A stretch of DNA of 39,018 nucleotides from Pegethrix bostrychoides GSE-TBD4-15B (GTDB lineage Bacteria; Cyanobacteriota; Cyanobacteriia; Elainellales; Elainellaceae), in the NCBI GenBank assembly GCA_019359155.1, contig JAHHHV010000028.1, forward strand, positions 1 through 39,018, read 5' to 3'. Below, in pieces: positions 1-5,219 of the stretch. A model generated the notes under the pieces. That model made no database searches, was not told where the DNA came from, and saw only the letters and a program-made list of their open reading frames with translations. Positions within the stretch are counted from its first letter, which is position 1, and each line of letters starts with the position of its first letter. The translations under genes and the position numbers were made by a program.

Positions 1-268
1 GGCAAAGGCTTCGACGATAGCAAGTTGAGGCATCGAGGTCAGGGTTTGAGAGATGGCCTAACTACCATATCAGTTTCACAATTGGAATGAAATAGCCCTG
101 CTTCAAAACCAAGTACTTTGTGTATTCGTTCACCGCCATTTTTCGAGGAGTATCCATCTCATTTGCTGCCTTCTAAGAAACTAAAACTCATCCAGAACTA
201 AAAGGCTTAATTGTCGCTGATTCATTGACAGTTTCTTTCACCCTGAAGCTGTTGTTATAAGCATGGCG

Positions 269-1510
269 TTATACCGACAAATGAAACGCTTGAACGGCAA
301 GTTGCACTTCTCTGTTTCGATCGCCATTAACGTGAAAGCGATACTGATACCACCCGAGCTCAGGCTTTGAAACGAAGCCAAGGTAATTCGAATGCTCAGT
401 TGTTGCTTGTTCAATTGTACTGAGAACGGAAGTGAACTCTTTGTTTGGCACAAAGACGATAACTGCTGCTTTTGAATCTCGCCATGTTAGATAGGACAGA
501 AGCTGCGTGATCGTATCAAGATAGCCCTTCTTTCCTCGCCAATACTTGAGCTCACCGACGAAGATGTTGCTTCCGTCGTGCCGTAGAAGGATGTCCGTTT
601 TACCCGACTTGTTGAAAGTCTCTCCGGTAGCACTTCCCTCGAAGTTTGGCTCCAATATGAGCAAAAAGTGGTCTCGCAGATGCTCTTCTTCCTTTCCTGC
701 ATAGGTGCTGGGCAGTCTTTCAAACTGCTTCCCGACATCGTGCGTGATCTTCAGTATCTGCTGATAGATAGAATTATCGAGCGCCGGCTCCGGTTTGTAT
801 CCCTTTTCGGTAACGACAGGCTTTGGCTTGGCCTGAATGGCGGGAGTCCGCTTCGCGGTAACGGCAAAGGTTGTAGGCGCGTTGTCGGATTTTCGGATAG
901 GCACTCCCAGCGCGGAGAGCAAGTTGCCCTTCTTCAGCAGATGGGACTTCCTGGCGTCAAACACTTGATTGGCAATCTGCTCAATTGAGCCATTGAACGC
1001 CGTAAGGTCTCGGGTAAGGTGTGCGTTTTGCGAAACGAGTTGCGCGACTCTGCTATCGGCTTCTCTCTTAATGGACTGAGCATCCATGTTGAAGTTGATA
1101 AATTCAAAGATGATCTCTTGCCCTTTAACAGAAATTCGCGGAGCCGACATGCTGAAAGTGCTGGCGCGAACCTTGAGAAGTTCAGCTTGTCCCGTAAACG
1201 GCAAGTGAAACGTCAGCACATCCTTTGGGTATGACTTGCCAGCGTGAACGTAGAAGGAGTGTGGGTGCATCTCGGCAGGAATCAATCGTTCCTCGGTCGA
1301 TACGCTCAACTGGTCCGCGTGGATTTCAAGCGGATTGATCGTGTATGTACTGACAAGGTGTGCTACGTACTCCGCCTTGTTGACGTTAAGAATGTAGTTG
1401 TCGGCCTGACCGTTAATGTCTGCCGCAATCTTTTGCTTCTGGCCCTCGACGACCGCAAAACCGTCGTGCTCCGAGAATGCCGGAAACTCTCTACCCCTGA
1501 ATCTATTCAC
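269..1510 (-). CDS. PD-(D/E)XK nuclease-like protein, unknown role
   Basis: I do not recognise the whole family. The C-terminal third has the layout of a PD-(D/E)XK nuclease fold: a helix rich in acidic residues (about 272-282), then GKTDILLRH with D306, then VGELKYW with E320 and K322, followed by a helix with Q336 (ITQLLSY). D-x13-E-x-K with a following Gln helix is typical of restriction-endonuclease-like catalytic centres. The first 200 residues have no domain I can name. They include a possible helical segment at about 145-185, and residues 205-240 are a Pro/Lys-rich linker. The start is GTG, preceded by GGGGAGAA. There is no partner gene in an operon: the next gene upstream is 217 bp away. 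Nuclease activity and a role in defence or DNA processing are inference from the motif; a housekeeping or degenerate fold is also possible. Confidence 0.7.
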   Translation of the reverse strand: MNRFRGREFPAFSEHDGFAVVEGQKQKIAADINGQADNYILNVNKAEYVAHLVSTYTINPLEIHADQLSVSTEERLIPAEMHPHSFYVHAGKSYPKDVLTFHLPFTGQAELLKVRASTFSMSAPRISVKGQEIIFEFINFNMDAQSIKREADSRVAQLVSQNAHLTRDLTAFNGSIEQIANQVFDARKSHLLKKGNLLSALGVPIRKSDNAPTTFAVTAKRTPAIQAKPKPVVTEKGYKPEPALDNSIYQQILKITHDVGKQFERLPSTYAGKEEEHLRDHFLLILEPNFEGSATGETFNKSGKTDILLRHDGSNIFVGELKYWRGKKGYLDTITQLLSYLTWRDSKAAVIVFVPNKEFTSVLSTIEQATTEHSNYLGFVSKPELGWYQYRFHVNGDRNREVQLAVQAFHLSV

Positions 1511-1727
1511 ACATTCTCCCCATGCTTATAACGGCTGAGATGAGCGGCAGTAGTAGCCTTGAACTCATAACCAGAACTTGGTTTGTCCGCTCCATCTCAA
1601 TGTTAGACTGTGCTTTATGATTAGCTCCTAATAAGGATTACAAGGCTTCAATGCTAATTGAGCATAGTGCCCGCACGCCTATAGATCGAGCGATCTTTTT
1701 TAGATGCATTGATGTTGATGATCCAAT
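1511..1727. other. Intergenic spacer, nothing recognised
   Basis: This 217-bp spacer lies between the nuclease-like gene and the protease gene, both on the minus strand. I see no RNA gene, strong hairpin or repeat. A short open frame on the plus strand (1651-1833) runs antisense into the repeat region of the protease and does not look coding. Confidence 0.4.
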
Positions 1728-2849
1728 TTACCCCACTGCTAAGTATGAAGCCGTGGCACCGTCCCAACTCCAACCACGCCATCCATCTCCTCTTGATACT
1801 AATTGTTTTGACGTAACTGAACCAAAGGTTTGACCATCAAATGGACGCACATAAAGCCAGGTTTGCCGTTTCTCATCAACAGCTAAGTATGAGGCTGTGC
1901 TACCATCCCAACTCCAACCACGCCATCCATCTCCCTCTGATACTACTTGGCTTGATGTGACTGGACCGAAGGTTCGACTATCAAATGGACGCACATAAAG
2001 CCAGGTTTGCCGTTTCTCATCAACAGCTAAGTATGAGGCTGTGCTACCATCCCAACTCCAACCACGCCATCCATCTCCCTCTGATACTACTTGACTTGAT
2101 GTGACTGGACCAAAGGTTCGACCATCAAATGGACGCACGTAGAGAATTGTGGTTATCTTGGCTCCAGGAGGAGTTCCAGGGTAAAGCCTTTGAGCAAACT
2201 GTTTATCGGTTGCTGAAAGTTGCGTATTCCAACCAGTAGAGAAACCATCAGTTGTTAATTCTGCAGGAATCGCATAAAGCATGATCGACTCACGATCAAA
2301 CGCCGAATATTGTGTTCGATCTTTACTTTCTGCTTGCAGCACATTCCTTGTAGTCGCATCTTCATTCCATCCATTAGTTCGACGATAATAGTCAATAACG
2401 GCTTCTCGATTCCATTTGATCCCAGACTCAGGATGTTTATGCTCATGTGTAAATCCGAGAGCGTGACCAAATTCATGCAATACAACTCTTGAATATTCTT
2501 CGTCGGGTGAATCAGCTTTCAGCCATCCAAAATTCATTGTTGGTTCGTCGCGATTGACTAGCAAGGCATCTGTACCCAACATAGACCAAGATCCTTTCCT
2601 CGTGAATGAAATTCGGATTTCTGCATTAAGATCATTACCAAACTGGAACTTAATATTTGCAAACTGGCTCCATTGATGGGCAACTACTTCAACCTTCTTT
2701 TGAACGATAGGCTCTCCATCCAAAAATCGCACGCGCAAAGTCATTCCAGCGATCCATAAATATGCAGTCAGTCCGACCAGGTAAAGCTCACTGGACTCTA
2801 CGCCTTCGGAGAATACTGGTACTGAGCAAACCTTAATTTCATCAGACAT
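1728..2849 (-). CDS. Metzincin-type (astacin-like) zinc metalloprotease with three C-terminal 48-aa repeats
   Basis: The zinc site is HEFGHALGFTH at residues 125-135, the extended HExxHxxGxxH signature of metzincins, with E126 as catalytic base. A Met-turn SIMLY at 188-192 (M190) resembles astacins and matrixins. No signal peptide or pro-domain is visible, so the mature enzyme would begin almost at the start codon. From about residue 235 to the end are three copies of a 48-residue unit containing YVRPFD, a TFGPVTS-like stretch, DGWRGWSWDG and TASYLAV. The unit is aromatic-rich, suggesting a binding or adhesion module (inference). The units are nearly identical in DNA, so they are recent duplications. 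Peptidase activity is supported by the complete motif; substrate and export route are unknown. The start is ATG, and the upstream region contains the 40-bp palindrome array. Confidence 0.85.
   Translation of the reverse strand: MSDEIKVCSVPVFSEGVESSELYLVGLTAYLWIAGMTLRVRFLDGEPIVQKKVEVVAHQWSQFANIKFQFGNDLNAEIRISFTRKGSWSMLGTDALLVNRDEPTMNFGWLKADSPDEEYSRVVLHEFGHALGFTHEHKHPESGIKWNREAVIDYYRRTNGWNEDATTRNVLQAESKDRTQYSAFDRESIMLYAIPAELTTDGFSTGWNTQLSATDKQFAQRLYPGTPPGAKITTILYVRPFDGRTFGPVTSSQVVSEGDGWRGWSWDGSTASYLAVDEKRQTWLYVRPFDSRTFGPVTSSQVVSEGDGWRGWSWDGSTASYLAVDEKRQTWLYVRPFDGQTFGSVTSKQLVSRGDGWRGWSWDGATASYLAVG
1738..2169 (-). repeat. Three 144-bp tandem repeats inside the metalloprotease gene
   Basis: The units start at 1738, 1882 and 2026, each exactly 144 bp (48 codons). 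The middle and 2026 units are nearly identical; the unit at 1738, which encodes the C-terminus, is more diverged and carries the stop codon. The period keeps the frame, so copy number can change without breaking the protein. Confidence 0.9.
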
Positions 2850-2923
2850 GTCTATATTTCCAATAATTTTATTGATTTTTTTGAGATGTCTATTGGGCTG
2901 ATTTTTCGCAGTCTAACTACTAT

Positions 2924-3110
2924 GTAGACGGACAACATCCGCCTATCTACCCTTCAGCAGGTGTATAGACGGACTGCATCCAACCATATCGCCGCTAGAG
3001 CTACTTAGGCGGACAACTATTCGCATATCTGCCCAAATCGGGTATTTAGGCGGACAACTATCCGCATATTAGCCCTCATATCCATTTGGGCGGACAAGCT
3101 TCAGCAATTC
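2924..3110. repeat. Array of five degenerate palindromic repeats with 40-41 bp period
   Basis: The core CGGAC occurs at 2929, 2970, 3010, 3051 and 3091, giving spacings of 41, 40, 41 and 40 bp. The best units read TTAGGCGGACAACTATCCGC (near 3045-3065), an imperfect palindrome with GCGGA facing TCCGC across a short loop. Units 3 and 4 are closest to each other; units 1, 2 and 5 are diverged. The array lies just upstream of the metalloprotease gene. The degeneracy and lack of distinct spacers argue against CRISPR. Candidate roles are recombination or attachment sites, an iteron-like binding array, or relics of a mobile element. Confidence 0.75.
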
Positions 3111-3170
3111 TTTAGATGATCTACCTGACTAGCCCAATCTCACCAAACGTAAAAATTCTCCCCTCCCCAC

Positions 3171-3200
3171 TTGCGCTCAGCCAGAGTTTCAGCTTATGAT
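3171..3200 (+). promoter_or_regulatory. Candidate promoter of the small ORF leader
   Basis: TTGCGC at 3171-3176 and TATGAT at 3195-3200 are separated by 18 bp, a plausible sigma-70-type pair. It would start a transcript near 3207, leaving a leader of about 210 nt before the ATG at 3421. Confidence 0.4.
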
Positions 3201-3238
3201 TTTCCAACTGATTGCGTGAAGCAGTCAGGACAGGTAAA

Positions 3239-3384
3239 AGCTTAAGGCGTCGCTGACTAGAAGTGGTGGAACACAACTAGCCAGCTAACCCGACTCCCCG
3301 TTCACGCCGGGAAGCAAGGCTGAGTCGATTTTACATCGCGCTCGCTTCGTTCACGCATGTGGTCAGGTGACTCAACGCCTTAGG
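3239..3384 (+). promoter_or_regulatory. Structured 5' leader or small RNA upstream of the small ORF
   Basis: GCTTAAGGCGT near 3239-3249 can pair with ACGCCTTAGGC near 3374-3384 (10 of 11 positions). Inside this, CTGAC (about 3252) faces GTCAG (about 3361), CGACTC faces GAGTCG around 3290-3334 with CCCG and CGGG nested within, and CATCGCG faces CGCATG near 3337-3360. Together these suggest a multibranched RNA of about 145 nt that ends about 36 nt before the ATG. The central CGTTCA and GGGAAGCAAGG recall pieces of the glutamine-II/Downstream-peptide motif, but the spacing is wrong, so I do not assign a class. Confidence 0.4.
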
Positions 3385-3420
3385 CTTTCAAACCCATAAC
3401 CAAAATTGAGGCAAATAATC

Positions 3421-3621
3421 ATGTCTACAGAGTTCAACGAACGTCTGCCGGAGTCGCTTGGCCATCAGGCACAAATTTGGATTGTCGGGACGCGAGAGCA
3501 AGTCAACCACATCATCAGCGAGATGTACGTGCGGCAGATGATTACCGACCGCAACCAGTTCTCGCCAATGGTTCCCGCACCATTCGCGCAAGGTAAGTTT
3601 ATGAGCGTGCTGCTGCGATAA
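3421..3621 (+). CDS. Small conserved cyanobacterial protein, unknown function
   Basis: This is a 66-residue protein if translation begins at the ATG at 3421, which has GAGG about 9 nt upstream. An in-frame ATG at 3406 has no comparable ribosome-binding site. The sequence is soluble-looking, with no membrane segment. It has a compact beta/helix-like core (QAQIWIVGTREQVNHIISEM) and ends in GKFMSVLLR. I believe close relatives occur widely in cyanobacteria as hypothetical proteins, but I recall no function. It stands alone, convergent with the dihydrouridine synthase gene (7 bp between stops), behind a long structured leader that may control it. Confidence 0.7.
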   Translation: MSTEFNERLPESLGHQAQIWIVGTREQVNHIISEMYVRQMITDRNQFSPMVPAPFAQGKFMSVLLR

Positions 3622-3628
3622 GCCCAGG

Positions 3629-4726
3629 CTAGCCAGCGCTGCCGACGCAGATTTGCTCAGCAGCACTGGTTGGTCTAGCCGCTTCAGAACCAGGACGCGC
3701 CAACAGTCCCGGATAAGGCTCAAGATTGAACCGCGCATTTGGATCGCTCAGCAAATGCCGATCCAAGACTGAGCAAAGTTGAGCTTCGGTTTGTGCTAGC
3801 CGCATCTCGCGCAGAAAAGCGCCCTCAGCATCCACGCTCTGAGCAATATAGTTCAGGTACATTTTCAAATAGCTGACCCGCGCTCGCTCCGGCACAGTCA
3901 GCGCAGCTGTTGTTTGGCGCAGGCGTTCAATATATTCGCGCACTTCTGCGAGCTTAACTGGCGTGACAGCCTGACCGCTCAAATACTGCCGAATCTGCCG
4001 AAAAATCCAGGGATTCCGAATCGCCGAGCGCCCCACCATCACGCCAGCCGCCCCCGTTTGCGCCAGCACCGCCGCTGCCGAAGTCGCCGAAGTCACATTA
4101 CCATTCGCCAGCACCGGACAGTTGAGCTGCTGTACAGCTTGAGCAATTCGGTCGTAATCCACTGCACCGTGATACATCTGCTTCACTGTTCGGCCATGCA
4201 GACTGAGCAAATCTATACCGTGGCGGTTGATCAGCGCCAGCATCTTTTCAAAAGAGGCCGTGTCTTCAAAGCCAATCCGCATCTTGACGCTAAGCCGCCC
4301 CGATACCGCCTGCCGTAGCTCCCCCAAAATCTGGTTCACCTTTTCAGGGTCGCGCAGCAGCCCACCGCCGACGTTTTTGCGATAGATACGCGGAGCCGGA
4401 CAGCCCATATTTAGATCAATGCCTGCCACCGGATAGCGGCTGAGCAGTTTCGCTGTCCGCACCAGATCGGGGATGCTCTCGCCAATCATCTGGGCAAAGA
4501 CGGGGCGCTGGGTCGGGTTTTCGGTAATCGAGCGCAGAATTTTTTTGTCGAGCGTCGAGCTAGGATGCACCCGGAAATACTCGGTGAAAAAGTAGTCTGG
4601 ACTGCCGTAGCTGGCAATCACCTGCATAAAAAACAGATCTGTTACGTCCTGCATGGGCGCAAGTGCAGTAACGGCTAGCCCCGGACAACTGGGCGGCGGC
4701 AGCGGATGCAGTGCCAAATTAGGCAT
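3629..4726 (-). CDS. tRNA-dihydrouridine synthase (Dus family)
   Basis: This FMN-dependent enzyme reduces uridine to dihydrouridine in tRNA D-loops. The TIM-barrel signatures are all present: LAPMQDVTD at the N-terminus, GIDLNMGCPAPRIYRKNVGGGLLRDP with the catalytic Cys in the MGCP loop, VKMRIG, LSLHGRT and VLANGNV, then VMVGRSAIRNPWIF for phosphate binding, followed by the helical domain. The open frame extends upstream to 4909, but the ATG at 4726 matches the family's usual N-terminus. It overlaps the stop of the Uma2 gene by 8 bp, which suggests translational coupling. The C-terminus has a 20-30 residue Ala/Gly-rich tail beyond the family core. Which Dus subfamily (A, B or C) applies cannot be settled here. 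Confidence 0.92.
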   Translation of the reverse strand: MPNLALHPLPPPSCPGLAVTALAPMQDVTDLFFMQVIASYGSPDYFFTEYFRVHPSSTLDKKILRSITENPTQRPVFAQMIGESIPDLVRTAKLLSRYPVAGIDLNMGCPAPRIYRKNVGGGLLRDPEKVNQILGELRQAVSGRLSVKMRIGFEDTASFEKMLALINRHGIDLLSLHGRTVKQMYHGAVDYDRIAQAVQQLNCPVLANGNVTSATSAAAVLAQTGAAGVMVGRSAIRNPWIFRQIRQYLSGQAVTPVKLAEVREYIERLRQTTAALTVPERARVSYLKMYLNYIAQSVDAEGAFLREMRLAQTEAQLCSVLDRHLLSDPNARFNLEPYPGLLARPGSEAARPTSAAEQICVGSAG

Positions 4727-5219
4727 CAGAATCCATCCCTGCGGTAATGGGCTGGTAGGTTTCAGCTTCGAGTCGGCAGCCTTTGAGCCGCTCCGGAATC
4801 CATTCGCCTCTGGGGGCAAACTGCCAGTATTCTGGGACTTCGAGCTGTTCGTAAAGATTGCGCTTAAACGTCTCGTCGCGATCGCGGGTTCCAGCAGCGG
4901 TAATTTCAAAAATAATGGCAGGCGACTGGCCTTCTGTCCAGGTTTTGAAGTGATCTCTGGAACCGGACGACAGGTCGAAAATCACCATAATGTCGGGCGC
5001 AACCCGCAGCTTCGGAAAGCCTTCAGCGCCTTCAGCGTAGTAGAGAAACTGATCGGCCAAGACGAGCGCGGGCTGTGCTGATAAATCGTGACGCAGCGCC
5101 ACCACCGCGTTGATAATCGCGTCAACGTGAACTGAATCTGCCAAAGGTTCACCGTCTGAGCTGGGGGAGAAGACTTCAGGTTTCCTAAATTTAGAGGGAA
5201 TCAGGGAAGTCGAAGTCAT
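4719..5219 (-). CDS. Uma2 family (DUF820) PD-(D/E)XK nuclease-like protein
   Basis: Uma2 proteins are expanded in cyanobacteria and have a PD-(D/E)XK fold; their physiological role is unsettled. Visible signatures are APDIMVIFDL with the catalytic-type Asp, PAIIFEITAAGTRDRDE where EIT replaces the more usual EVLSPST, then the K and Y of FKRNLYEQLEVPEYWQF. At 166 residues it is shorter than most members (about 190-240). It stops in YQPITAGMDSDA, where relatives usually continue with a G-W/L-x-S-x-x-LGL tail. The overlapping frame downstream reads QGWILMPNLALHPLP, which resembles that tail, so a frameshift may have shortened the gene (inference). It is followed with an 8-bp overlap by the Dus gene. 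Confidence 0.85.
   Translation of the reverse strand: MTSTSLIPSKFRKPEVFSPSSDGEPLADSVHVDAIINAVVALRHDLSAQPALVLADQFLYYAEGAEGFPKLRVAPDIMVIFDLSSGSRDHFKTWTEGQSPAIIFEITAAGTRDRDETFKRNLYEQLEVPEYWQFAPRGEWIPERLKGCRLEAETYQPITAGMDSDA

Follow-up and report, generated by a model that had tools for sequence, protein, structure and literature searches.

The repeat array near the left end of contig JAHHHV010000028.1 of the cyanobacterium Pegethrix bostrychoides GSE-TBD4-15B is read here, at a probability of about 0.88, as the attI region of a cyanobacterial integron platform from which the integrase gene (intI) has been deleted; this figure covers the identity of the array, while the function of its units is graded separately. 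In the window (i.e., the whole stretch of 39,018 nucleotides that was analysed), the attI array has gene cassettes on the other side of its core site, intI is missing, and the leader of a 66-aa gene (ORF66) is joined to the array almost directly (Table 1). The source genome includes many integron docking sites, and no intact integrase gene was found in it.

The original prediction suggested that the array may be cassette-like or a recombination-site array, and named no known repeat class to which it belongs. The array does adjoin an integron core site, and the neighboring protease gene is a gene cassette; the further notion that the units are themselves separate recombination sites did not find support. 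The unit sequence fits no named repeat class, while the object as a whole belongs to a known category, the integron attI.

Table 1. Features of the integron platform and its neighbors (coordinates of the window).
Feature	Position	Strand	Basis
Gene cassette 2, start to R''	254..1531	-	Start/R'' complement
attC of cassette 1: R'', L'' with one extrahelical base, L', R'	1526..1610	-	0 mismatches in attC scan
Gene cassette 1 (protease cassette), core site to G of its attC	1532..2916	-	Start/R'' complement
Astacin-like metalloprotease ORF, 373 aa, 144-bp C-terminal repeats	1728..2849	-	Pfam PF01400, E 6e-7
Integron core site GTTAGAC at array left edge	2911..2917	-	Sequence; pairwise homology between array copies ends there
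attI region, five units, 40-41 bp period	2917..3112	-	Sequence; relatives have this layout ahead of intI
Array unit extents	about 2925-2945, 2966-2986, 3006-3027, 3047-3068, 3087-3106
Scar of missing intI and region before leader RNA	3113..3236	+	Homology to intI-bearing orthologous locus from 3152
Structured leader RNA, closed by AAAGCTTAAGGCGT / ACGCCTTAGGCTTT	3237..3388	+	Fold z -3.3 (window 3190-3440); covariation, 31 sequences
ORF66, 66-aa integron-linked gene	3421..3621	+	Matches in genome; follows intI immediately in several relatives
tRNA-dihydrouridine synthase (dus) gene, right-hand neighbor, anchor of orthologous locus	3629..4909	-	Pfam PF01207 Dus, E 1.9e-60

The array, its core site and the cassettes

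The five CGGAC cores start at 2929, 2970, 3010, 3051 and 3091, with steps of 41, 40, 41 and 40 bp, exactly as first described. CGGAC occurs 22 times in the window, and its longest chain with steps of 39-42 bp has five members; among 200 first-order shuffles, the longest chain is one in 187 and two in 13, and is never longer. A repeat search recovers units 3-4-5 (spacings 41 and 40) and units 1-2-4 (41 and 81); Tandem Repeats Finder misses the array, even at a score of 30. The intervals between the units are free of genes. The partial inverted complement that had been ascribed to the units can be read directly in unit 4 (GCGGA...TCCGC); as a general property it is weak, with 8/12 at unit 1, 9/12 between units 3 and 4 and 8/12 off the middle of unit 4 in a symmetric test of 12 positions, where the mean shuffle maximum is 7.8.

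At its left edge the array meets a core site of the form G|TTRRRY, with two cassettes on the far side. As judged from the sequence, a single crossover point would be expected at this end, between G2917 and T2916. Cassette 1 starts with GTTAGACTG, and its R'' (CAGTCTAAC) is the exact 9-nt complement of that start. The attC of this cassette (1610-1526 of the minus strand) shows the R''/R' and L''/L' pairing and the extrahelical base of such sites. Matches with zero mismatches arise by chance 0-2 times per strand in six shuffles of the window; with one mismatch, 3-11 chance matches occur per shuffle, and only zero-mismatch matches were kept. The array does lie upstream of a protease, as had been stated, and this astacin-like enzyme is the product of cassette 1. 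Its gene includes 2.8 copies of a 144-bp repeat with 92% matches (1738-2138), which is a recent internal duplication. Cassette 2 starts with GTTATAAGCATGG and encodes a 413-aa ORF (1510-269) with no Pfam match; an R'' (CCATGCTTATAAC, 266-254) that follows the ORF is the exact 13-nt complement of the cassette start, and the remainder of this attC was not recognised.

Copies of the platform and loss of the integrase gene

A search for copies that flank other accessory genes had been proposed as a check, and copies of the array do exist elsewhere in the genome, each cassette side differing from the next. In these copies the order of the units is unchanged, and to the right of the array lies a conserved block of about 500 bp, the end of which is close to the ORF66 stop codon. 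Copies L009 and L019 have lost units, and L013 has lost its left end. Eight further copies carry, in the equivalent position, an array of similar unit style and other sequence (type B). One of these (L034, G000:C35; G000 is the source genome) is split, at about -497 to -410 from the ORF66 start, by an insert with inverted repeats at its ends (TATAGCAATCC...GGATTGCTATA) that looks like a small non-autonomous transposon.

The likeness between pairs of array copies ends at AAC, which is G|TT on the opposite strand. Genome-wide, 18 such array-core ends were located, of which ten belong to type A and eight to type B. All 18 have a purine next after GTT, GTT itself being part of the search pattern, and the full GTTRRRY consensus is present in only 6 of the 18. 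In the first 1500 bp past these 18 cores, one 65-bp piece is common to two copies and nothing else is shared at E 1e-3. Unlike DNA beyond like core ends thus gives these places the look of integron docking sites. Eight perfect attC sites occur in the 98,270 bp of left flank of the 18 copies, where shuffles yield a mean of 1.0 in total, and one occurs in 95,799 bp on the right-hand sides. An R'' complement of at least 9 nt is detected in 7 of the 18 copies (0.3 expected from foreign starts and shuffled flanks) and one of at least 8 nt in 8 (1.1-1.6 expected). Taken together, 10/18 copies have attC or R'' (at least 8 nt) evidence of cassettes; the other 8 have neither in the flank available, which is shorter than 1 kb in two of them.

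A search of the genome with an array 17-mer at up to three mismatches gives 33 matches versus 31 for the reversed pattern, so there is no excess at this setting; the informative matches are only the 14 with at most one mismatch. The viral contigs searched carry neither the exact array 17-mer nor a confirmed relative of ORF66. The copies within the genome are related by descent; thus, the spacing that they share does not count as independent evidence for selection.

A search with TIGR02249 finds nothing over the cut-off and no intact intI in the source genome; what it does match is a fragment from the N-terminal part (residues 1-77, 100.8 bits) and, weakly, two other genes. A complete integron, which is defined by an integron integrase gene in the same genome, is therefore not what this genome contains. 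In the type-B copy L041/L127, residues 1-77 of intI stand right behind the array. In L042 (G000:C39), a short stretch that resembles the extreme end of intI lies ahead of the leader, at about -310 to -290 from the ORF66 start, and could be a further trace of intI loss. In L127 (G000:C75), L140, L145 and L149, a palindrome centered on GTAC (such as GTACTATTGAATACACAGTAC in L127) was seen by eye a short way ahead of the intI start and may be a regulator site.

TIGR02249 matches over the cut-off are found in 26 of the 60 genomes searched. In relatives the array lies ahead of intI, i.e., it adjoins an integron integrase gene as an attI should, and in several of them the leader RNA and the 66-aa gene then follow; in the window intI is absent from this place. 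The 66-aa gene is immediately downstream of intI, on the same strand, in Elainella saxicola E1 (G001), G004, G006 and G012. A comparison at the same locus is offered by G004, a genome of the same genus, in which the locus of the window itself reads intI - leader - ORF66 - dus, compared to array - leader - ORF66 - dus in the window. The dus gene is 82% identical in DNA between the two, and the alignment of the loci begins at window position 3152 and runs onwards. The G004 contig starts within intI, which places its attI beyond the contig end, and the intI end is out of frame as it stands. Since the same-genus genome holds intI at this place, beside dus, the window platform most likely lost intI and kept attI, leader and ORF66. 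With no intact intI found in the genome, the site in the window is an orphan; it would be either inactive or usable only with an IntI supplied from elsewhere.

A period of about 41 bp ahead of most cyanobacterial intI genes surveyed

Between core and intI (a distance of about 135-317 bp), the sequence of the units differs from one integron to the next, while the step is constant. The top autocorrelation lag is 40-42, or the double of this (80-84), in 20 of 24 regions, the exceptions being L137, L139, L150 and L151. This set is made up of the window and 23 of the 28 loci with an intI start, the other five having no core or flank that could be used; the source genome accounts for one of the 23 and thus contributes two regions. 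Autocorrelation troughs at 15, 25, 36 and 46 are as helical phasing would give, and the arrays number about 3 to 7 units by eye.

Upstream of intI, 25 of 32 cyanobacterial loci have their best lag at 39-43, as do 3 of 21 from Chloroflexi and 4 of 23 from other groups, with about one in ten expected. The survey (lags 20-69, 300 bp) includes 76 of 80 named IntI loci, which rank highest among at least 555 relatives, four having been omitted for less than 150 bp upstream. One of the four in-range loci among the others is L167 (Candidatus Gracilibacteria MAG SU_1_2), in which an intI 69% identical to a cyanobacterial IntI is preceded by a 40-bp period; this contig may be misbinned cyanobacterial DNA or the outcome of transfer. 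Within the cyanobacterial loci the in-range lag is frequent on the attI side (26/31), with 4/25 far upstream, 2/33 inside intI and 3/32 after it, where about 10% is expected; depending on the stretch taken, the cyanobacterial count is 25/32 (300 bp), 26/31 (250 bp) or 28/32 (250 bp). The cyanobacterial arrays are not independent, as single linkage places 27 of the 32 in one sequence cluster; of the five clusters in all, each has its majority at 39-43, one of them weakly (z 1.6).

In 14 of the 24 regions, the center of a dyad of at least 8 matches lies at 19-21 bp from the core (shuffle mean 0.5, maximum 3), so that array and crossover are in register. Taken singly, dyads at other places are weak and score close to the shuffle maximum. 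A 39-42-bp period is also noted upstream of some ORF66 copies, with z above 4 in 11 of 30 in G001 (30 of its 63 matches were examined for their surroundings) and 5 of 14 in G006; these values are the best of many windows without a control, and they hint that other genomes, too, may have amplified attI platforms.

What the units do is a question on which known attI sites provide a guide. IntI recognises attI as double-stranded DNA by its sequence and attC as a folded strand, and attI1 has two extra binding repeats that favor the attI x attC reaction, as far as the account in PMC8946536 goes. By analogy, there is about an even chance that the cyanobacterial units serve IntI as accessory binding sites and so form an expanded counterpart of DR1 and DR2 of attI1. 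Cassettes would enter at G|TT, at the left end of the array; the units, about four helical turns apart, would present their binding sites on one face of the helix; with the first dyad some 20 bp from the crossover, several IntI protomers could load beside it; and the loaded protomers would favor synapsis of attI with attC, the role that DR1 and DR2 have on a smaller scale in attI1.

A tentative alternative accepts the site as an attI and takes the 41-bp units as operator or promoter elements, bound by an SOS-type or other regulator, for intI and the cassettes. The units do occupy the interval from intI to the cassettes, in which the promoters of both have to lie, their helical phasing would suit looping or cooperative regulators, and the GTAC palindrome seen ahead of several intI starts points the same way. 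By contrast, unit sequence varies among integrons while the period is constant, a pattern that suits an integron-encoded factor better than a host regulator, and the register of the first dyad with the crossover also counts against this alternative. A sigma-70 scan of window positions 2850-3800 likewise detects one promoter-like site, no more than in shuffles.

It is improbable that stepwise tandem duplication left the array behind as a remnant that now has no function. The units are degenerate, two copies have lost some of them and the TIGR02249 search left the source genome without an intact intI, all of which speaks for such a remnant; however, the period is kept ahead of full-length intI in other cyanobacteria despite differing unit sequences and numbers. 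The original prediction had held that, with no copies elsewhere and no conserved period in relatives, the array would reduce to a local degenerate duplication; since copies occur in the genome and relatives keep the spacing, it does not reduce to one. A repeat RNA antitoxin, a CRISPR remnant or a plasmid iteron is very improbable: short, evenly spaced units beside a small ORF and a plus strand that folds better than shuffles (z -4.5) recall such elements, but array and ORF66 are separate modules, arrays precede intI at loci where ORF66 was not found, Rfam yields no match at the gathering score, and the core site and attC, which explain the layout, fit none of the three.

Among known systems, the class 1 integron site attI1, with its L and R boxes and the direct repeats DR1 and DR2, is one of the closest to the cyanobacterial arrays. 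The likeness, drawn from the description of attI1 in PMC8946536, lies in the position between intI and the first cassette, the one cleavage point and the extra repeats; the difference is that attI1 has two direct repeats, whereas cyanobacterial sites mostly have several units of about 41 bp. The attIA site of the Vibrio cholerae chromosomal integron is likewise a chromosomal attI and, unlike the cyanobacterial arrays, is without such repeats in the description given by PMC8946536.

Leader RNA, ORF66 and platforms without integrase

The leader RNA is about 150-200 nt in size, lies upstream of ORF66 and has covarying helices. An alignment of 31 leaders from 16 genomes includes 51 predicted pairs, 25 with at least two Watson-Crick types, and 88.5% of its cells are paired; these figures lean towards structure, as the structure was predicted on that same alignment. 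The 31 are what remained of 40 leaders after nine were removed by eye beforehand (L121, L067, L073, L074 and L081 as unlike the rest, the others as near duplicates or disturbed by inserts). On this modelling the leader structure looks conserved. The leader matches no Rfam family at the gathering score; at a relaxed threshold its best match is symR, on the other strand and at 30 bits (E 0.0017), where the cut-off is 61, and membership of a known RNA family was rejected. The leader may be a new cis-regulatory RNA. In several relatives a leader strand such as GCCUUGCUAAUG is, by eye, complementary to the Shine-Dalgarno region CAUUAGCAAGG, which suggests that ORF66 could be under translational control by leader pairing.

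ORF66 is found in 22 of the 60 genomes (the source genome included), all within the 36 of the same family. Its matches number 40 in the source genome, 63 in E. saxicola E1 (three with an internal stop and some partial) and 14 in G006, and the copies are almost always open. Homology between copies mostly stops near the ORF66 stop codon and is followed by unique DNA that often appears hairpin-like by eye. Among 115 intI-related loci, ORF66 is present in eight, each time with the leader (L141 and L172 are one place); thus, the pair is not a general part of cyanobacterial integrons. The array was also considered as a constant companion of ORF66, and this was rejected, as the DNA upstream of the leader in other ORF66 copies holds either a different module or none in common. 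No convincing relative of ORF66 was found in Pfam (best E 0.1), NCBIfam, PHROGs or the sequences of the PDB (best E 3.2), and the pLDDT of its AlphaFold2 model (63; two sequences) is too low for a fold search.

Integrons without an integrase have been described before. As defined in PMC9024848, CALINs are clusters of attC sites without integrase, recognised by the attC clusters alone, and In0 elements are integrases without cassettes. The platforms described here share with CALINs the cassettes with attC and the absence of intI; they differ in that attI, leader RNA and the 66-aa gene persist and recur many times per genome. For cyanobacteria, intI and attC are already known (PMC9668308, PMC2426708, PMC3108266, PMC8946536, PMC8352920, PMC9024848, PMC3607928), and attI is poorly described outside class 1 integrons according to the account of IntegronFinder 2.0 (PMC9024848). 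The listed titles and abstracts on integrons, attI and cyanobacteria hold no report of cyanobacterial attI repeat arrays or of amplified attI platforms without integrase, a description in the subscription literature being possible.

A wider proposal is put forward tentatively. The cyanobacterial sites would form a distinct attI class, a phased array of about 3-7 putative IntI-binding dyads, and, in one family, the unit of attI, RNA and ORF66 would have been amplified without the integrase into many platforms per genome. Such platforms could make up a docking network that one IntI might serve in trans, with the RNA and the 66-aa protein as accessory or control factors.

The 41-bp signature could make cyanobacterial attI sites findable from sequence alone, even where intI has been lost, and the arrays offer a direct test of why some attI sites have extra repeats. 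One genome thus holds many docking platforms without integrase, every one of them with accessory DNA of its own, and a small gene and a conserved RNA travel with them.
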